DNA of 39,156 bases from the NCBI GenBank assembly GCA_947474495.1, contig CANJIM010000029.1, positions 1-39,156 on the forward strand, read 5' to 3'. The position numbers and the translations under genes are program-made. The notes beneath the pieces are model-generated. The model was not told the DNA's origin. It saw nothing but the letters and a program-made list of their open reading frames with translations, and did not search any database. This DNA is from Rhodospirillaceae bacterium. Its GTDB lineage: Bacteria > Pseudomonadota > Alphaproteobacteria > SMXQ01. Positions 10,954 to 20,114 of the stretch are shown piece after piece; the stretch's first letter is position 1; every line of letters begins with the position of its first letter.

Positions 10954-12109
10954 GGCGCACCGGTCTTGCGCGTGGAGGCCGGTGGCGTCCAGGTTTGGAA
11001 GCGCTCACCCTGCAGGGATTTGACGACGCCGAAGCTGGCGGCAATCAGCGCGAAAACAATCTCGCCGATCAGCCGGACCGGCCGGAGGCCCGCGGCATAG
11101 AGGAAGGTGAGGCCACCCATCATCACCGCAGCGAGCGCAAAGCTGATCCAAAAGCCGATGAGGCTGGCGAGCAGGGCCCAAGCGAACAGCGCCGCGATCA
11201 TCAGATTCATGCCGCTGAACCAGCGCAGCAGCTTGTGCGAGAGATATTTGTATTTTGTGACGGGATCAAGGCCGCGCAGCCGACTCCACAGCAAGCGATG
11301 GGCATTGAACGCACGACAGGAGATTCGCACCTTGCGGCGAAACTCTTCGCCGCTCTGCGTCGTCGGCGGCTCCCAGGCGCGAAATTCTTCGCCACGCACC
11401 ACACGATAGCCGTCGCACAAGATGCTGATCGAGGTGAACATGTCGTCGATCACGTCCTCGCGCACCGGCCGATACAGCTCGCGGCGAATGGCGAACAAAG
11501 CTCCGTCGGCGCCCATGGCCGAACCGGTATCGCTTTCGAGGCGTTTGATATGTTCTTCGAGCCGCCAGTACGTCGAGCCGACCTCGGCGGTCTGTGAAAA
11601 ATCCGCCTCGCCGCTATAGACGAGATGGCCGCAGACGCAACCGACCTGCGGATCGTCGAAATACCCGCCCAACGCGGCGACGCCTTCGGGATCGATGATC
11701 GCATTGGCGTCCGTGAAGATGACAATATCCGCCGTCGTGCGGGCCAGCAATGCGTTCATGCCCGCGGACTTGCCGCTTCGTTTGGGCGAAACCACCACGT
11801 CAATGTCCGGCGTGAATTCGGCGAGAATTTTCGCCGTGTCGTCGCTGGCGCCATCGACATAGACGAGCAAGTCGGCATTGCCCAATCTCTGCCGCAAGGC
11901 GACGAGATTCTCCGCCTTGCGCCGGATGACCGCCGCTTCGTTATAGGCGGCGACGCAAATGGCATAACGATATGGGCGCGGACGCAGCGACGGCAGAAGC
12001 GGGCGCGGACGCCAGCGCTTCAGCAGGACGAGCGACAGCGGATAGGTCGTGAAAGGATGCGCGGCAAGCGCCAGAAAAATCAGCCCGCCGAAAAAAAGAT
12101 CATCGTCAT
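10950..12109 (-). pseudogene. Family 2 glycosyltransferase, frameshifted near its start
   Basis: A membrane-anchored GT2 enzyme of polysaccharide synthesis. The start ATG 12109 overlaps the stop of the upstream gene (ATGA), but its frame ends after nine residues at TGA. One extra T in the T7 tract (plus-strand A7, 12091-12097) would join it to the main frame and give a 386-residue protein: an N-terminal membrane segment, ICVAAYNE (nucleotide-binding start of the GT-A fold), VYVDGASDD, SGKSAGMNALL, IVIFTDANAI (DxD-like), GADGALFAIRRELY and a C-terminal membrane region. Without a shift, the first possible start is TTG 11897, which removes the nucleotide-binding strand. This may be a real mutation, a phase-variable or slippage site, or a sequencing error. 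Confidence 0.75.
12091..12097 (-). repeat. T7 homopolymer at the glycosyltransferase frameshift
   Basis: Seven Ts (As on the plus strand) follow ATG ACG ATG ATC at the start of the GT2 gene. With eight Ts the glycosyltransferase frame is intact; with seven it stops after nine codons. Replication slippage, RNA polymerase slippage or a base-calling error could each change the count. Confidence 0.7.
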
Positions 12110-12861
12110 GCGACCACCGGTCGGCAACGCCACAGCGTGTCCGCGTCGGTCAGGCCTTGGCGGCGGCGCAGATCGGTGGGCAAATCCGTCGCGGCGAAAC
12201 GTTCGACCGCAAAGCCTGCGAGTTGCAGACGCAAGGCGATGTCTTCGCCATAGAAGCGCACATGGTCCCACTGGCCGAAGCGCCGCTCGCGCTCGCGGCG
12301 GGGCATATTCGGGCCGCCCTCTTCGGTCGGGCGGTCGTGCAGTGGCACGATTATCCAAGCTTCGCCGCTCGGCGTAAGATTGGCGCAGATATTCCGCATC
12401 GCCAACTGGTCGTCGAGAATATGTTCCAGCACATGCGAAGCGTAGATCAGGTCATAGCGCTCGTCGCCGGCGGGAAAATCGCACAAATCGACTCGCCGCA
12501 CATCTTGTCCGGGATAACTTTCCGGATAAATGTCGGCGCGGACATAGTCTGCGCCCGAGGCGGAGAACAACGCCACCAAGGATTGCTCCGAGGGCGCGAT
12601 GTGCAGGATGCGGGCGTTCTTGCCAGGCAGTCGCATCAGGCCGCTGTCCACCACATGGCGGACGAAGCGTTCGCGCGGCGAAGATCCGCAGCGCGGGCAG
12701 CCCCAGTCCTGTGTCGGGCCGTAAGCGAAAAAGCCGGGGACGTCATTGCCGCAAGCGTTGCAGTGGAAAGCGCCACCTGGACGCAGAACCCCCTGCAATT
12801 GCAAGCCTAGGCGGTTCAACCGGCCGCGAAGCCCTCTGGCGATGCGTTTGGTGCTCAGCAT
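12106..12861 (-). CDS. Zinc-ribbon SAM-methyltransferase-like protein of polysaccharide operon
   Basis: A 251-residue protein. Residues about 33-63 hold a zinc ribbon of two CxxC knuckles (CNACG and CPRCG). A Rossmann methyltransferase-like domain follows: ILHIAPSEQ in place of the usual GxGxG motif I, then YDLIYASHVLEHILDD (post-II) and EAWIIVPLHD. The motif QWDHVRFYGEDI is typical of methyltransferase-like proteins in capsule and exopolysaccharide clusters. I start at ATG 12861 because it overlaps the stop of the upstream transferase (TGATG) and an earlier start would invade that gene. Its stop overlaps the next start (ATGA). It is the only gene of this operon without a visible lesion. Substrate unknown. 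Confidence 0.8.
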   Translation of the reverse strand: MLSTKRIARGLRGRLNRLGLQLQGVLRPGGAFHCNACGNDVPGFFAYGPTQDWGCPRCGSSPRERFVRHVVDSGLMRLPGKNARILHIAPSEQSLVALFSASGADYVRADIYPESYPGQDVRRVDLCDFPAGDERYDLIYASHVLEHILDDQLAMRNICANLTPSGEAWIIVPLHDRPTEEGGPNMPRRERERRFGQWDHVRFYGEDIALRLQLAGFAVERFAATDLPTDLRRRQGLTDADTLWRCRPVVA

Positions 12862-14358
12862 CAGTAGGCATTCTTGCCGGTTAAAATCTTGACGACCGTC
12901 AAGATCAAGATCCAACCGTCGAGCCACAGCGACCAATGCTCAATATAATAGAGATCATGCTCGACGCGCTTTTGGATCTTCTCGACCGTATCGGTCTCGC
13001 CGCGCCAACCGTTGACCTGCGCCCAGCCGGTGATGCCTGGCTTGACGCGATGGCGCTCGGCGTATTCCGCGACGGCCACGTCATAGAGCTGATCCTCGGC
13101 CTTGGCGCTCAACGCATGTGGGCGCGGACCGACAAGCGACATGTCGCCTTTTAGAACATTCCAAAGCTGCGGCAATTCGTCGATGCTGCTGCGGCGCAGG
13201 AAGCGGCCGAGCTTGGTGACGCGGACATCGTCCTTCGTCACCAGTTTTTCGGCCGTATGGTCTGTCGTTTCGGCGCGCATACTGCGGAATTTATAGATGT
13301 CGAACAGGTTATGATTGAACCCATGGCGTTTCTGACGGAACAGCACCGGACCCGGACTGTCGAGCTTGACCAGCAGCGCGACGAGCGCCAACAAGGGCGC
13401 AAGTAGGATGATCGCGATCGAGGCGAGCATCAAATCGCTGAGCCGTTTCAGCCACGAGCTCCAGCCAGTGATCGGCTTGTCAGCGATGTTCAACGCCGGA
13501 ATGCCTGCCCAATAGGACACAGGACGATTGGCGAGATTGAATCCGACGGCGTCACTCAGCAGGCGCACGTCGACGGGCAGGGCGCGCAGCTGCTGGGCGA
13601 ATTGCAGCAGCCGGTCTTCGGCCGAGAGAGGTATGGCGATGATGACTAGATCGATTTCGCCATAGCGCACATGATTGATCAGGTCCGCCGTTGAGCCGAT
13701 CACCGGCACGCCGGCCACGGTCGGCGGCACGCGTGAGCGGCGATCGTCGAAGAACCCGACGACATGCAGGCCGAGGCTGCGCTCAGCTTGAATAGCCTCG
13801 ACGAAGCGCTGGCCGAGCTGTCCGGCGCCGACAATGGCGACCGCGCGGAAATAGCGGCCTTGATCGGCCCAACTTTTCAACCGGTGCGCGATGACGAAGC
13901 GTGAGGCGATCAGTAAGGTCGTACTGCCGACATACCAGACCAACAGCCAGATACGCGAAAAGTCCTCGGAGATTTTTGAGCAGGAAGGCCGCGACCACCA
14001 GCAGAACCACGACGCTGGTCCAGGCGACAAGCGTGCGCTTCACTTGAAATTTGACGTTGCGCAGAGCCTCGAGCGTGTAAAGCCGAGCAGCGGCGAAACG
14101 CTGGCTGGCGATGATCATGGATATCGCGATCGCGGCAAAATAAGCCACCGTATCGTGGGATTTCTCACCCATCAGCCATTCGAGATAAATCTCGTAGCTC
14201 GCGATGCCGACGATTGCGATGATCAGCGCGTCGATCACAGCGATCAGATTGCCGAACGACTCTTCGGATATGGCCGTGCGACTGCTGTTCGTAGCAGACT
14301 GGCCGAACCGCCATCCCTTCGTGGGATGCGGATTTACTCGCTCATTACTATCCAACAT
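12861..14358 (-). pseudogene. WcaJ-like polyprenyl-phosphate sugar-1-phosphate transferase, frameshifted
   Basis: First gene of the polysaccharide operon. It would encode a 498-residue initiating phosphoglycosyl transferase that loads the first sugar phosphate onto undecaprenyl phosphate. The frame from ATG 14358 gives the N-terminal four-helix membrane part up to FLLK. The rest (ISEDFSRIWLLVWYVGSTTL, then the Rossmann-like VAIVGAGQLGQRF) lies in another frame. One extra A in the A5 tract (plus-strand T5, 13973-13977) explains the break; four As restore a continuous frame. The catalytic domain is intact: KRLSDLMLASIAIILL, DSPGPVLFRQKRHG, YKFRSMR and the Asp-Glu dyad region SIDELPQLWNV with GDMSLVGPRP. 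A separate start at GTG/ATG near 14030 seems unlikely. Confidence 0.85.
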
Positions 14359-14543: not shown

Positions 14544-15149
14544 CTAAGCCGGCTGATCCGGCATGAGCCGTGTCGTCCGTTCGGAGAGATATTCTAAACT
14601 GCGATCCTCCAGCACCTCGTCCTTGCCGCGCTCAGCCGCCCGAGATTCCACCACGCGGTCGCGCTCGCGCAACAGATCGGCGATGTCGTCGCGATAGAAT
14701 GCGAGCACGGCGGTCAACCATCGGTTGGCGAGATAATCCGGCGTTGCCAATTGCACGTCGAATCGGGCCAGCAATGGGATCAGATCTTCGGCCGCCAGCC
14801 AGGCGTCGCCCGTCACCCAGCGATTGACGGTGAAGAGCCGAGCCAAGCGGCCGCTCCCATCGATCCCGGCGGCGATCAAATGATGAATCGGCCCTTCGGC
14901 GCCATCGGGTCGGAGGAAGCAATGGAAATGTCCATGCTCGTCGCGCGCCGAATCCGGCGCGTGGCAATGATAGTAATATTGCGCGCCGCTCGCCGGATCG
15001 TAAACGTCGCCGGCCGGGTAATGCTGCATCAACGCCGGAGCGTCGGTCCGCAGAGTCACAGTCACAACGCCCAGACCGGATTTGGCAAGAACATGCTCGC
15101 AGTAGAGCGCCTCGCGCAAGGCCTGCTGGCGCGTTTCCGCCGTGCTCAT
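14544..15149 (-). CDS. Conserved His-rich hypothetical protein (DUF6969-like)
   Basis: A 201-residue soluble protein without signal peptide. Its core has a striking His pattern: YYYHCHAPDS, then EHGHFHCF, then IHHLIAAG within about 40 residues, followed by VNRWVTGDAW. The spacing suggests a metal site. It resembles proteins I recall under the name DUF6969, whose function is unknown to me; that match should be searched. ATG 15149 overlaps the stop of the NPCAA-repeat gene (ATGA), so the two are translated together. It is the last gene of the rhodanese/YeeE/repeat-protein operon, which suggests a role in metal or sulfur handling, possibly acting on the repeat protein before export. Confidence 0.7.
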   Translation of the reverse strand: MSTAETRQQALREALYCEHVLAKSGLGVVTVTLRTDAPALMQHYPAGDVYDPASGAQYYYHCHAPDSARDEHGHFHCFLRPDGAEGPIHHLIAAGIDGSGRLARLFTVNRWVTGDAWLAAEDLIPLLARFDVQLATPDYLANRWLTAVLAFYRDDIADLLRERDRVVESRAAERGKDEVLEDRSLEYLSERTTRLMPDQPA

Positions 15150-15472
15150 CGCGCCGGGGCGGCCGCACAGGGATTGGCGGCGCAAGGGTTCGTCGCCGCG
15201 CCAGCGGCGCAGGGGTTCGTCGCCGCGCTAGCGGCGCAGGGGTTCGTCGCCGCGCTAGCGGCGCAGGGGTTCGTCGCCGCGCCAGCGGCACAAGGATTCA
15301 CGGCGGCGCCAGCAGCGCAGGGATTGGCCGCGCAGGGATTGCCCGAGACTGCCGGCGCGCTCACCGCTGTCGCGGGCGGCGGTGGCGCCACATGGCGCAG
15401 ATGATCCGCCGCGATCGCCGCCGTTGCGAGGACGAAGACCGATCCGAAGAGCAGCGTATTGCGATCCTTCAT
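15146..15472 (-). CDS. Exported NPCAA-repeat cysteine protein
   Basis: A 108-residue protein. Residues 1-22 form a signal-peptide-like or anchor segment (basic MKDR, then LLFGSVFVLATAAIAA). A proline-rich linker follows, and the remainder is eight copies of NPCAA, most separated by GAAT, SAAT or GAAV. All eight cysteines sit in the repeats. Such a chain could bind metals or carry persulfide sulfur in the periplasm; this is inference. ATG 15472 is preferred to the upstream TTG 15487 because GAGG lies nine bases before it. It follows the YeeE gene closely and overlaps the next start by ATGA. The DNA is a 27-base tandem repeat, so copy number may vary between strains. Confidence 0.8.
   Translation of the reverse strand: MKDRNTLLFGSVFVLATAAIAADHLRHVAPPPPATAVSAPAVSGNPCAANPCAAGAAVNPCAAGAATNPCAASAATNPCAASAATNPCAAGAATNPCAANPCAAAPAR
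15177..15329. repeat. 27-bp tandem repeat array inside the NPCAA gene
   Basis: Five direct 27-base units run from 15177 to 15311 (boundaries at 15204, 15231, 15258, 15285), followed by shorter 18-base variants. Units 2 and 3 are identical and units 1 and 4 differ from them by one or two bases; unit 5 is more diverged. Each unit encodes nine residues. Confidence 0.9.
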
Positions 15473-15483
15473 GACGCCACGCC

Positions 15484-16674
15484 TCAATCGAGCCGGAAGA
15501 GCGGACGGAGCCGCACGCCGACATAACTACCGGCGAAGGCGGCGGCGAACCATAGCCAGCCGTGCAGGCTCCCAGTGGCGATGCCGCTGAACAGCGCGCC
15601 GATGTTGCAGCCAAAGGAAAGCCGCGCGCCGTAGCCCATCAGCAAGCCACCGAGCGCCGCCGCGAGCAACGATGGCCAAGGCAGCTTCGCCTTGGGCGCG
15701 AAACGACCGGCGAGCGAGGCGGCCAAGGCGGCGCCGAGAATGAGACCGAAATCCATGACTGAAGTGCTATCGGCCAGGACGCTCTGCGCCAGCCCCTTGG
15801 CCGGTCCAGGCCAGGTCCAAAATGTCCAAGTCTCGACCGGCACACCGACGGCCTGCAACAGTTTCGCGCCCCACAAGCCGAAGGCGAAGGTGATCGACCA
15901 GGGATGACCGGCCACCGCTAGGGTCACGATATTGAGTAGGGCGAGCGCCAGCGCGCCCCACAGCAGCGGCCAGGGGCCATGCAGCAAGCGCGCAACGCCC
16001 GGCGGCGTGGCGACGAACAAGGGTTCGAGCTCGCCATGGCGTCGGCGTTCGCTCCAGACAGCGAGACCGGCGATGGCGCCGAGCCCGGCGAGCGTCAGCG
16101 CGACGGCCGGAAGCGCTCCCAACGCCGCGCCTAGGCTGACGGCGGTCCAAGACGGCAGTTCCAGCCACCAGGGCAGGTGCGCCGTGCCGATGACTGCTCC
16201 GGCGATGAAGAATGCGAGGGTGACAAGCATCCGCGCGCTGCCGCCGCCAACGGTAAAGAGCGTGCCGGAGCCGCAACCGCCGCCGAGCTGCATGCCGAAG
16301 CCGAACAGCGCCGCGCCGAACAGCACCGAAACACCGAGCGGCGCGATGGCGCCGACCAGCGGCTTGCCGAGCAGCGTGCCGCCGGCGAGCATCGGGATCA
16401 TCGCGACAGCGGCGATGGCGATCATCAGCAATTGCCCGCGTAATGCCGTGCTGCGCCTTTCCAGCACAAAGCGGCGCCAGCCGCCGGTGAAGCCGAAGGC
16501 GGCATGATAAAGGGTCACGCCGCAGAGGCCGCCGATCAGGAAGAGCGCGCTTTGCCGCAAGCCGATCAATTCGGTCAAGCCGATCGCGCCGAGCAGAATG
16601 GCCAGCACGACGGCAAGGACGGTACCGCGATCCGATTGCGGCGGGTTGTAAGACGAAGCGGAGGTAAGGCTCAT
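15484..16674 (-). CDS. YeeE/YedE-family (TsuA-like) thiosulfate/sulfur transporter
   Basis: A 396-residue membrane protein of the YeeE/YedE family, whose characterised member TsuA imports thiosulfate through conserved cysteines. The two family signatures are present: GFGMQLGGGCGSGTLFTVGGG near residue 125 in the first half, and YGARLSFGCNIGALFSGIATG near residue 350 in the second. Both motif cysteines are retained. I prefer ATG 16674, with GAAG eight bases upstream; ATG 16680 is possible. The open frame extends back into the rhodanese gene but has no reason to start there. It lies between an exported rhodanese and the NPCAA protein, all on one strand, which points to uptake or relay of sulfane sulfur. 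Confidence 0.9.
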   Translation of the reverse strand: MSLTSASSYNPPQSDRGTVLAVVLAILLGAIGLTELIGLRQSALFLIGGLCGVTLYHAAFGFTGGWRRFVLERRSTALRGQLLMIAIAAVAMIPMLAGGTLLGKPLVGAIAPLGVSVLFGAALFGFGMQLGGGCGSGTLFTVGGGSARMLVTLAFFIAGAVIGTAHLPWWLELPSWTAVSLGAALGALPAVALTLAGLGAIAGLAVWSERRRHGELEPLFVATPPGVARLLHGPWPLLWGALALALLNIVTLAVAGHPWSITFAFGLWGAKLLQAVGVPVETWTFWTWPGPAKGLAQSVLADSTSVMDFGLILGAALAASLAGRFAPKAKLPWPSLLAAALGGLLMGYGARLSFGCNIGALFSGIATGSLHGWLWFAAAFAGSYVGVRLRPLFRLD

Positions 16675-16694
16675 GAACATGTCTTCGATAAGGT

Positions 16695-16721
16695 GCGAGC
16701 CGGGACAATGTCCCGGCTCGC
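16695..16721. promoter_or_regulatory. Strong hairpin between rhodanese and YeeE genes
   Basis: Perfect 13-base arms (16695-16707 and 16709-16721, core CGAGCCGGGACA) flank a single base. No T run follows on the minus strand, so it is not a standard terminator. It may be an mRNA processing or stabilising element that sets relative levels of the two genes. Confidence 0.6.
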
Positions 16722-16751
16722 TGCGATAGGCAAGGCGTGAAAAGCGATGGC

Positions 16752-17687
16752 TTAAGGCGTGAACTTGCGTTCGACCGGACGTGCCGTGTCCATCGTCCAT
16801 TCGGCCATCGAGCCGTCATAGAGCGTGGTCTTCTTGTTGCCGTAAACCTCGCTGATGCCGAACCAGGCGACAGAAGCCCAATGGCCGGTGTTGCAGAACG
16901 CGACGATATCGCCGTCCTTCTTCACACCGGCTTTGTCGAGCAGCGCGGCAATCTGCTCCTTGCTGATGAACTTGCCGGCCTTGTCGTCGTAGAAGCTAGT
17001 GTTCTCGACGTTCACGGCGGCGGGAATGGTGCCGAAAGCCTTGGCGACCGGGCTCTTGCTTTTGCCGATGTACTGTTCGTTGGGGCGGGCATCGACCAGC
17101 GGCACGCTCTGCTTGCGCGCCGTCTCGACCTCGGCCGTGCTGGCGAACAGCGCGTCGCGGAACTTCGCGGTGAAGACTGCCGGCTTCGGCGTCGAAGCGC
17201 CAGACGCCACCGGATTGCTGGCATCCGCCGTCCAGGCGCGCCAGCCACCGTCAAGCACGGAGACGGCATCATGGCCAAGGACCTTGAAGGTCCAATAGAC
17301 GCGCGCGGCATTACCGAAGTCGGAGGAGTTCTCGCCGGTCGGAATAACGACGACATGCTTGTCGGCATTAGCGCCGATCTTGCCGATCAGGGCTTCGATC
17401 TCCTTCACCGGCGGCAGCATCCCGGGGACGCCATCGACCGTCGTGCGCCAGCCGTAGCTGTTGTAGTCGGCGAACACGGCGCCTGGGATGTGGCTCTTGG
17501 CGAAGCCGGCTGCGCCGCCGCCTTCCGCTTCGGGGCGAATGTCGATGACGAGCAGATCCGGATTGGCGAGGTTCTGCTTGAGCCACGCGGCGTCGACCAA
17601 CGGCCGGTCGGTAAGGCGCTTGGCCTCGGCCGTGCCGGCGGCGCCGAGAGTGAGAGCGACGGCGAGAGCAATGAGGCCCTTGCGCAT
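16752..17687 (-). CDS. Exported tandem-rhodanese sulfurtransferase
   Basis: A 311-residue periplasmic thiosulfate sulfurtransferase-type enzyme. Residues 1-22 are a signal peptide (MRKGLIALAVALTLG, cleavage probably after AEA). An inactive N-terminal rhodanese domain follows, with LLVIDIRPEAE and, at the usual cysteine position, IPTGENSSDFG. The catalytic C-terminal domain has VPLVDARPNEQY and the loop CNTGHW with the active Cys265. It transfers sulfane sulfur from a donor such as thiosulfate to a thiol acceptor; a nearby cysteine-rich exported protein is an attractive acceptor. ATG 17687 has AGGAG nine bases upstream and a strong promoter beyond that. It is the first gene of the operon with YeeE, the NPCAA protein and the His-rich protein. 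Confidence 0.92.
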   Translation of the reverse strand: MRKGLIALAVALTLGAAGTAEAKRLTDRPLVDAAWLKQNLANPDLLVIDIRPEAEGGGAAGFAKSHIPGAVFADYNSYGWRTTVDGVPGMLPPVKEIEALIGKIGANADKHVVVIPTGENSSDFGNAARVYWTFKVLGHDAVSVLDGGWRAWTADASNPVASGASTPKPAVFTAKFRDALFASTAEVETARKQSVPLVDARPNEQYIGKSKSPVAKAFGTIPAAVNVENTSFYDDKAGKFISKEQIAALLDKAGVKKDGDIVAFCNTGHWASVAWFGISEVYGNKKTTLYDGSMAEWTMDTARPVERKFTP

Positions 17688-17722: not shown

Positions 17723-17750
17723 AATATAATTAGCAAAAATTACATGTCAA
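17723..17750 (-). promoter_or_regulatory. Strong sigma-70-like promoter of the sulfurtransferase operon
   Basis: On the minus strand TTGACA (17750-17745), a 16-base spacer and TATATT (17728-17723) lie in the most AT-rich patch of the window, 35 bases before the rhodanese start. The imperfect dyad ATTGACATGTAAT covers the -35 element and could be an operator, for example for an ArsR-type sulfide sensor; this is a guess. Confidence 0.65.
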
Positions 17751-17765
17751 TTATCATATTACACA

Positions 17766-20114
17766 TTATTTTAATGTATTACGGCGCCTTGCCAGGCTTA
17801 CCAAAGAGCGCGGCGAAAGCGGCTCATAGCGCAGCACAAGCTCGGTCGTACCCGCTGGGAGGCCAACGGCCCGAAATAGTCCATTGGCGCGCAGGATATC
17901 AAGCCGGTCTCCGCTCATCGTGGAAGCTGTCCAGGCCGGATCGTAAATCTCATTGATCACCAGATAGGCCGGCCGCTCGGCAGTGGCGACGAGACGCATC
18001 TCGTCGCGACTCCGCTCCAGAATAACCACTTGCCCGACGGGGCCGGGCTCGCCAATCGGCGCGGGGAGTCCGGCGATCTGCACACGCGCCTCGGGATCCT
18101 CCGGCAAGACATCACCGTCGGGTTCGGCGCGCCCGACGAGCAGAGCGCGCGGCAGGGCGGTGGTGTTTTCGTAGAGGAAGGCGCCACCGATGCGATCGAC
18201 CAATCGCAGCGAACGATGCGCCTGCGGCGGCAGGATTTGCGTAATCGGCGCTCCAGTCACCACGAGTTTGATGCCTAGCAGACGCGCCAACGTGCTGTCA
18301 TAGCCTGTGAAGGTCGCAGTCATGCGGCGCTCGGGACCGTGATTGTTCTGATAAGCGCCCGTCGCCGCGACGTAATCGGCGTCGCGCAGCGGGTCATATC
18401 CCAGAGTCTGCTCAATGCCATAGACCATCGCGGCGTTCTGCCAATCGCCCCCAAGCCCGAATATCTCGGCACGATAGGGATCAGTCGCATCGCCCAGACG
18501 AGATCGAATGGCCTCTGCGATATGTTTTCCGGTAGGGCCATAGGCCGTGAGCTGCTCCTGCGGCTGGGCATTGAAACGCGCCGCTGCGTTATGGACAATG
18601 AGATCGAGGGCCGTCAGCAGACACAGCGTCAATGCCATCGCGGCCATATGACGCGTCTGCCATAGCAGCAACGTTGCCGCGAGCGCGACGCTGGCACCGC
18701 CGATGGCGAGCGCAAACAGCGCCGCGTTCACATGACCGAAGCGAACAGCCAGCCAGATGGCAGCGATGATGGCGATCGCGATCATGGTCGCGACGATGAC
18801 AGACCCGAGCGCCGACCAGGCGCGCGGCGTCGTCAGCCATTTCTGAAGGGCCGCGCCGGAGAGAAAGGCCAGCATCGCGTTCAATAGGAATGCCGCGTCA
18901 TTCGGCCGCCGATAAAGTGCAGCGCCCGGCAGCCAGTCATAGAATAGGCGGAAGGCCGGCGTGAAAGCGCCGAGCGCATAAAGGAGAGCGAAGGCAAGAC
19001 CTGCCGCAAACAAACTACTCGCGTGCGGCCAAACGCCACGCCGCGCGACGGCGACGAGAAGCAGCGCCAAGGGGAATGCGCCGATATAGAGATAGTTTGT
19101 CGTCTCGTCCGTCCAGTCATTGCCCAGCGGCGCCAGCGCCATCCAGGGCAATTGACCGGGCCCCCAATATCCGCCCGCCGTCAAATTTCCGAAGATGTTG
19201 GGCGCGAACAGCGTGAGCAGGGATGCCGGCTGTTGCGAGCCATAGGCGGCCAAGGCGTAACCCATATCGAGGCGCGTGCTATGGGCAAGGGCATCGAGCG
19301 TCAAAAGAACCGGCAAGGCGAGGATAGCCCCGCCAATGATAACAGCGGGCAACAAGCCGGCGCCGCGCTGAAGCACGGCGATCTGGCCGTCTTGGCGCCA
19401 CAGCGCGCCGAGCCACCACAGCCCCGCGCCAATCAGCAGCCAGCAATTGAGGAAAGCCGTTTGATCACGATCCAGCGCCATGACGCCGGCGATCAAGCCG
19501 AAGCCTACCGAAGCCGTCATGCGGGATTTCTTCCGCTGTGCGTGGAGAGCGCGCTCAAGCAGCCACAACGCCCACGGCAAGTAGGCGTAGCTCACCGTCA
19601 TCAAACTATGCTGCAGACGACTCGCCGCAACGCCGCCGAACATGAAGACAAGCGCGGCCAACAAACCGGCGACCGGCGCGAAACCGAGTGCACGCAGCAA
19701 GAGGAGAACGCCAAAGCCGCCGATCAGCAGATGGAGGAGCTGCACGCCATCGACCAGCATCATGCTCGGCGCGGCGTTCCATTCGGCAAGCAAGCGAAAG
19801 CCGGGGACGAAGAGCCAAGATTGCGGATCGGCAACCGCCGCATCGCCCGAATAGAGATAGGGATTCCAAAAGCCGCTGTCGCCGCCGGCGCGGGCAGAGG
19901 CCAAGGCGCGCAGGACGGGATAGTAGTAATCCTTGGCATCCCACGGAATGACTTGACCCGTCAGGGGCCAATGCAAGGCATAGATCGCCCAAGCGAGCGC
20001 GGCGAACAGGGCCGCCCAGCGCCAGCCACCGGCACGCGCGCCCGACAAGGCGTCGCCGAAACGATCAAGGCTGGCGAGCGTCGTGGCGAAAGTTGAGAAT
20101 ATAAGGCGAATCAC
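17766..20114 (-). CDS. YfhO-family large membrane protein (GT-C-like)
   Basis: A 782-residue protein with roughly a dozen membrane segments and a C-terminal extracytoplasmic domain. It resembles YfhO-type proteins of the GT-C glycosyltransferase-like fold: an early loop has IPWDAKDYYYPVLRAL and FWNPYLYSGDAAVADPQSW, typical of this group. YfhO homologues in Firmicutes decorate teichoic acids with sugars; in Gram-negatives the role is largely unknown. GTG 20114 is the only start near the first membrane segment, and no good ribosome binding site is visible. It lies downstream of the OpgH-like gene on the same strand, with a 38-base gap, so a role in envelope glycan modification is plausible. Confidence 0.75.
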   Translation of the reverse strand: MIRLIFSTFATTLASLDRFGDALSGARAGGWRWAALFAALAWAIYALHWPLTGQVIPWDAKDYYYPVLRALASARAGGDSGFWNPYLYSGDAAVADPQSWLFVPGFRLLAEWNAAPSMMLVDGVQLLHLLIGGFGVLLLLRALGFAPVAGLLAALVFMFGGVAASRLQHSLMTVSYAYLPWALWLLERALHAQRKKSRMTASVGFGLIAGVMALDRDQTAFLNCWLLIGAGLWWLGALWRQDGQIAVLQRGAGLLPAVIIGGAILALPVLLTLDALAHSTRLDMGYALAAYGSQQPASLLTLFAPNIFGNLTAGGYWGPGQLPWMALAPLGNDWTDETTNYLYIGAFPLALLLVAVARRGVWPHASSLFAAGLAFALLYALGAFTPAFRLFYDWLPGAALYRRPNDAAFLLNAMLAFLSGAALQKWLTTPRAWSALGSVIVATMIAIAIIAAIWLAVRFGHVNAALFALAIGGASVALAATLLLWQTRHMAAMALTLCLLTALDLIVHNAAARFNAQPQEQLTAYGPTGKHIAEAIRSRLGDATDPYRAEIFGLGGDWQNAAMVYGIEQTLGYDPLRDADYVAATGAYQNNHGPERRMTATFTGYDSTLARLLGIKLVVTGAPITQILPPQAHRSLRLVDRIGGAFLYENTTALPRALLVGRAEPDGDVLPEDPEARVQIAGLPAPIGEPGPVGQVVILERSRDEMRLVATAERPAYLVINEIYDPAWTASTMSGDRLDILRANGLFRAVGLPAGTTELVLRYEPLSPRSLVSLARRRNTLK

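Follow-up and report, generated by a model that had tools for sequence, protein, structure and literature searches.

Bufferins are exported cysteine-rich peptides that buffer copper and are matured by a cytosolic metalloenzyme (PMC12452194). The bufferin/MNIO systems (DUF692, PF05114) are widespread in Pseudomonadota, and their cysteines stand beside small residues; a mark of these systems is the conversion of cysteine to thiooxazole. The movement of sulfur into the cytoplasm has been described as poorly understood (PMC11582611); in the transporter StYeeE, residues C91 and C293 have been called indispensable (PMC11582611), and C22 of YeeE is the residue adjoining the cysteine of YeeD (PMC11073785). 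Further systems to be compared are the transporter SoxT, the periplasmic swinging arm of SoxYZ with its one cysteine, and PmpAB, which takes up zero-valent sulfur. Here we analyse four genes in a stretch of 39,156 nucleotides from a Rhodospirillaceae bacterium (contig CANJIM010000029.1; the whole stretch is called the window below), which encode a rhodanese, a YeeE-type transporter, a cysteine-repeat protein (P0001) and a histidine-rich protein (P0004) of the family DUF6969 (PF22308). A partnership of DUF6969 with exported cysteine-repeat proteins, conserved in Alpha-, Beta- and Gammaproteobacteria, is well supported. PF22308 is uncharacterised: our literature search found no paper mentioning DUF6969 or PF22308, a search on NPCAA strings returned unrelated text only, and no description of a DUF6969/cysteine-repeat system was found.

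Like the bufferin systems, the locus places the gene of an exported cysteine-rich substrate beside that of a cytosolic, histidine-rich putative metal enzyme; unlike them, it has an enzyme that is unmatched by the MNIO model and lacks a significant fold match, and a substrate without DUF2282. An assignment of the pair to bufferin and MNIO was rejected, as P0004 matches PF22308 only and not PF05114, and no MNIO is detectable in the window genome (G000, 96% complete; 0 matches, with control genomes positive), so that the known bufferin chemistry does not account for the pair. MNIO was likewise undetected in 10 of the 20 genomes with DUF6969, the Buf1 (DUF2282) signature was not matched in P0001, and no DUF2063 partner is found in the operon, in which the other genes belong to PF00581 and PF04143 and no further gene is present. 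At four loci (L073, L098, L104 and L121), MNIO/bufferin genes (PF05114 and a DUF2063-like partner) are found no more than 8 kb away from DUF6969 and cysteine-repeat genes, with DUF2282 present in the bufferin clusters of L073, L104 and L121; this fits a common theme, not a shared enzyme.

DUF6969 and its cysteine-repeat partners

Of 398 genomes sampled from the phylum, 20 carry DUF6969, as do 16 of 41 near relatives. The neighbourhoods of 86 loci were grouped at 75% DUF6969 identity into 45 non-redundant loci and searched for cysteine-repeat open reading frames. Such a frame lay no more than 2.5 kb from the DUF6969 gene in 31 of the 45, and 4-8 kb away in one, the far flanks being incomplete for some loci. 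Of the 20 genomes with DUF6969 among the 398, 10 have a triple-NPC DNA pattern, versus 25 of the 378 others (Fisher p 7.5e-7), and within the class of the window in 6 of 13 versus 1 of 122 (p 1.5e-6), relatedness among genomes being ignored in both tests. In eight of the ten DUF6969 genomes with the pattern, a match is about 4 kb or less from DUF6969, and the matches in two genomes lacking DUF6969 (G006 and G073) resemble simple DNA repeats, not cysteine proteins. The pattern has no second place in the 2.99 Mb window genome and arose in 0 of 100 shuffles of the window. The sequence-only reading had proposed that the histidine-rich protein serves the cysteine repeats; this idea gains strong support, as DUF6969 comes after cysteine-repeat genes even in settings without rhodanese or YeeE.

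The repeat protein of the window has a conserved N-terminal hydrophobic segment, NTLLFGSVFVLATAAIAADH, is of low complexity elsewhere, and matches no Pfam family; its AlphaFold model has a predicted local distance difference test score (pLDDT) of 52, the N-terminal helix alone being modelled with moderate confidence. Eight evenly spaced cysteines had been claimed for it: the eight are present, but their spacings of 5, 9, 9, 9, 9, 9 and 5 residues are not fully even. The cysteines stand singly, and CxxC pairs are absent. A copy from the same genus (L040, 617-1021; also L123) has six NPC units and one further unit, PC, that lacks the asparagine, versus eight NPC units in the window, while its DUF6969 is 90% identical to that of the window, which indicates that the array changes quickly. 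Across loci the repeat takes the forms NPCAAK, SPCSAA, APCAA, KPCAAK, CGAKCGAK and CAAGCAAC, so that the common core is a cysteine followed by small residues, often with a proline before the cysteine. Some of the proteins begin with ordinary signal peptides or lipobox-like N-termini; a hydrophobic segment of the form NTLLFG...AIAxDH, likely a membrane anchor, is common to those of the alphaproteobacterial rhodanese/YeeE loci and of L101.

In many loci the repeats form arms on cytochromes. One NPC-tailed type matches the SoxA/TsdA domain PF21342 (E 3e-11), and a second repeat-armed type gives a weak cytochrome P460 match, below the cut-off. The repeat protein of the window shares its NPC arms with SoxA/TsdA-type cytochromes of other species, and it resembles the SoxYZ swinging arm in being a (predicted) periplasmic cysteine arm among small residues; unlike SoxYZ, it has many cysteines instead of one and no SoxY domain. 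SoxY (PF13501) was not matched in the window genome, though the control genomes gave no match either.

A candidate metal site in DUF6969

P0004 is a clear DUF6969 member (232.5 bits versus the Pfam gathering value of 27, over profile positions 2-199 of 201). In an alignment of 57 DUF6969 sequences, P45, H61, H63, G73, H74, H76, H90, F106, N109 and R163 are invariant, five of them being histidines (H61, H63, H74, H76 and H90), and H43, D48, D51, E71 and H72 are nearly so. The AlphaFold (AF2) model has a pLDDT of 94.7 and a predicted template modelling score of 0.90, and in its DSSP order the conserved histidines lie on or beside successive strands, which makes a metal site in the predicted model a reasonable proposal. 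From the invariant histidine cluster, DUF6969 is a plausible candidate for a metalloenzyme that modifies cysteine. No significant structural match was obtained in the PDB (Foldseek best E 0.21; VIA-align best Z 3.7) or among viral structures (BFVD), and a profile search of PDB sequences returned matches only at E above 0.5. As no signal peptide was seen in DUF6969, it should work in the cytosol, before export.

The same protein might instead be a non-catalytic chaperone or thiol-protecting holdase, which keeps the repeats reduced and export-competent and makes no modification. Such a role would suit the cytosolic partner of a low-complexity, cysteine-rich export substrate to which it is translationally coupled in the window, and it would suit a protein with no recognised enzyme fold; the invariant histidines, asparagine and arginine clustered in the sheet region, however, resemble a metal or active site rather than a holdase surface, and we consider the holdase distinctly improbable.

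Rhodanese, YeeE and the four-gene operon

The positions of the genes and of the main features within them are given in Table 1. As the sequence-only reading had it, all four genes lie on one strand, the last two overlap by ATGA (the stop of the cysteine-repeat gene and the start of DUF6969, at 15146-15149), and a promoter-like site precedes them. This site scores 11/12 against the sigma70 consensus in a consensus scan, which says nothing on transcription; the region contains six sites of this kind, versus 1.3 expected. The gaps are 77 bp between the rhodanese and YeeE genes and 11 bp between YeeE and the repeat gene, and such spacing points to one shared transcript for the four genes.

Table 1. 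Features of the four-gene operon in the window
Feature	Position	Strand	Remarks
Sigma70-like promoter TTGACA-16 bp-TATATT	17723..17750	minus	36 bp ahead of rhodanese ATG
Rhodanese gene	16752..17687	minus	two PF00581 stretches
YeeE gene	15484..16674	minus	PF04143, E 2e-70
Cys-repeat protein gene	15146..15472	minus	108 aa, 8 NPCAA units
NPCAA repeat array	15167..15340	minus	inside Cys-repeat gene
DUF6969 (His-rich) gene	14544..15149	minus	PF22308, E 4.5e-69, 201 aa
His/acid core of DUF6969 (H43, D48, D51, H61, H63, E71, H72, H74, H76, H90)	14880..15023	minus	57-sequence alignment

The rhodanese has the tandem layout of two-domain rhodaneses and 3-mercaptopyruvate sulfurtransferases. Its sole cysteine, Cys265, lies in the motif CNTGHWAS of the second domain and aligns with the catalytic cysteine of the 3-mercaptopyruvate sulfurtransferase 3olh; a Sec-type signal peptide, read by eye, predicts that the protein is exported. 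The YeeE protein matches PF04143 (Sulf_transp) over its full length (238 bits, 1-309 of 310). Like YeeE/TsuA-YeeD and SoxT, it is a PF04143 transporter with both indispensable pore cysteines: by alignment to 6leo, its Cys134 and Cys356 correspond to C91 and C293 of StYeeE, equivalents of which are kept in 12 of 12 aligned YeeE proteins, with no further cysteine column common to all 12. Unlike YeeE/TsuA-YeeD, it has Gly61 at the position of the YeeD-contacting C22, so that the TsuA trio of C22, C91 and C293 is incomplete, and neither YeeD nor TusA is encoded in the operon, the TusA proteins of the window genome being encoded elsewhere. It also departs from TsuA in scoring far under the NCBIfam equivalog cut-offs (56 bits versus 400, and 36 versus 645).

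A search for co-occurrence of the four genes in other genomes found the set again in the Alphaproteobacteria (L041, L042, L043 and L109) and in Gammaproteobacteria-like loci (L106-L108). The order RHOD-YeeE-Cys-DUF6969 is that of the window and of L041, L042 and L043, and the order YeeE-Cys-DUF6969-RHOD that of L109 and of L106-L108. The latter three are compact sulfur operons with YeeE as two half-size genes, as in PmpAB; unlike PmpAB, these are accompanied by the cysteine-repeat, DUF6969 and rhodanese genes. They also contain an ArsR-type gene most similar to that of the sulfur regulator BigR (102 bits, under the cut-off of 155). A gene for a high-potential iron-sulfur-like protein is seen near some of them.

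Partial versions of the set also occur. Betaproteobacterial loci (L073, L080, L082 and L083) combine the cysteine repeat, DUF6969 and YeeE; L171-L173 have RHOD-YeeE-Cys without an adjacent DUF6969, which those genomes carry elsewhere beside another repeat gene; and in L124 rhodanese and YeeE are oriented divergently to DUF6969, and the locus yielded no repeat. Altogether, of the 57 rows in the DUF6969 tree, 13 have a rhodanese or YeeE gene next to DUF6969, and a sulfur relay therefore cannot be the general role of the DUF6969/cysteine-repeat pair. In this tree the DUF6969 protein of the window clusters with those of L041, L042, L043 and L014 (100/97) and separately from the beta- and gammaproteobacterial sulfur loci; its deep forks are weak and it has long branches that meet, so it does not fix how many times the sulfur link was gained independently. 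The absence of rhodanese and YeeE from most DUF6969/cysteine-repeat loci might suggest that a rhodanese-YeeE sulfur import pair merely neighbours an unrelated cysteine-repeat/DUF6969 pair. We hold this to be most improbable, as distant lineages have the set in altered order, and L171-L173 retain RHOD-YeeE-Cys with no DUF6969 next to it.

The proposed maturation module

The explanation we tentatively prefer, with confidence a little short of even, is that DUF6969 and the exported cysteine repeats form a two-component maturation module, to which a periplasmic rhodanese and a YeeE sulfur transporter are attached in the window. DUF6969 would work in the cytosol on repeats of the form Pro-Cys-small-small, as a metal-dependent enzyme or as a chaperone that carries metal, and would act on them before Sec export, during their synthesis, with help from translational coupling. 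Tethered by its conserved N-terminal segment to the outer side of the inner membrane, the repeat protein would then form a flexible arm with many thiols, modified or not. In this operon the repeats would carry or buffer sulfane sulfur for the rhodanese, which would load or unload it at the repeat cysteines, and for YeeE, which would carry sulfur across the membrane via its two kept cysteines; arms borne by cytochromes would serve SoxA/TsdA-like or P460 redox chemistry. A relay in which the rhodanese loads the repeats, which then supply YeeE, is consistent with the data, and we infer the chemistry of the module and the direction of sulfur flow. A more specific proposal, which appears doubtful, is that DUF6969 is a new metalloenzyme family of undescribed fold that modifies cysteine in the Pro-Cys-small-small repeats of exported proteins and of cytochromes, independently of MNIO and in the manner of enzymes acting on ribosomally synthesised and post-translationally modified peptides, and that in this operon the repeats so modified carry sulfane sulfur at multiple sites between rhodanese and YeeE.

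The conserved gene group suggests an undescribed way to build and use thiol-rich proteins outside the cell membrane. If the module exists as proposed, a second, unrelated enzyme family would stand besides MNIO for maturing exported cysteine-rich proteins, the uncharacterised PF22308 would gain a testable substrate, and there would be an explanation for the long cysteine-repeat arms that many Pseudomonadota have on cytochromes of the SoxA/TsdA and P460 types; a true sulfur relay would in addition bear on the delivery of sulfane sulfur to YeeE-type transporters that lack the YeeD-contact cysteine.

Several points weigh against this explanation. The metal, the modification and the persulfide are proposals drawn from genes and models, and the DUF6969 model offers no known enzyme fold to back catalysis. 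The sulfur genes join only a minority of DUF6969 loci, and kinship among genomes may enter the co-occurrence counts, as the tests ignore it. The Azospirillum loci, 28 of them in one cluster, carry DUF6969 with no cysteine repeat detected nearby; in five Azospirillum genomes no repeat was found by the NPC pattern and no clear one by C-A-A, the matches to which are scattered in these GC-rich genomes and look like chance. Finally, NPC-tailed cytochromes also occur in family f39, which belongs to another class, and its searched members have neither DUF6969 nor MNIO, so that the repeats can exist in the absence of DUF6969.

The f39 loci also bear on a different function, in which the exported repeats would buffer thiophilic metals or metalloids (Cu, As, Hg or similar), DUF6969 would prepare or metallate them, and rhodanese and YeeE would do no more than supply or clear sulfur. 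The copper-buffering bufferins set a precedent, their clusters lie close to DUF6969 at the four loci named above, and f39 NPC proteins adjoin the arsenite methyltransferase ArsM and ArsS. The four-gene operons, however, contain no metal transporter or metal regulator, the linked genes being sulfur genes and a BigR-like regulator, and the repeat cysteines stand singly, 5 or 9 residues apart, and form no CxxC pairs. We judge the metal buffer unlikely, and an arsenic or thiophile link of the f39 NPC proteins possible.

Some further observations may be added. In the f39 loci L159, L160, L162, L163 and L167, small NPC-repeat proteins together with NPC-tailed cytochromes adjoin ArsM and mostly ArsS; a multihaem cytochrome is next in most of them, and DUF6969 is absent. 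Many Azospirillum genomes keep DUF6969 (loci L044-L076), and in several of them the next gene is of cluster c1, which adjoins DUF6969 in 13 loci. In the window itself, the genes flanking the operon (12106-14358 and 17766-20114) resemble those of polysaccharide or membrane biosynthesis, namely a sugar transferase, a methyltransferase and a large membrane protein.

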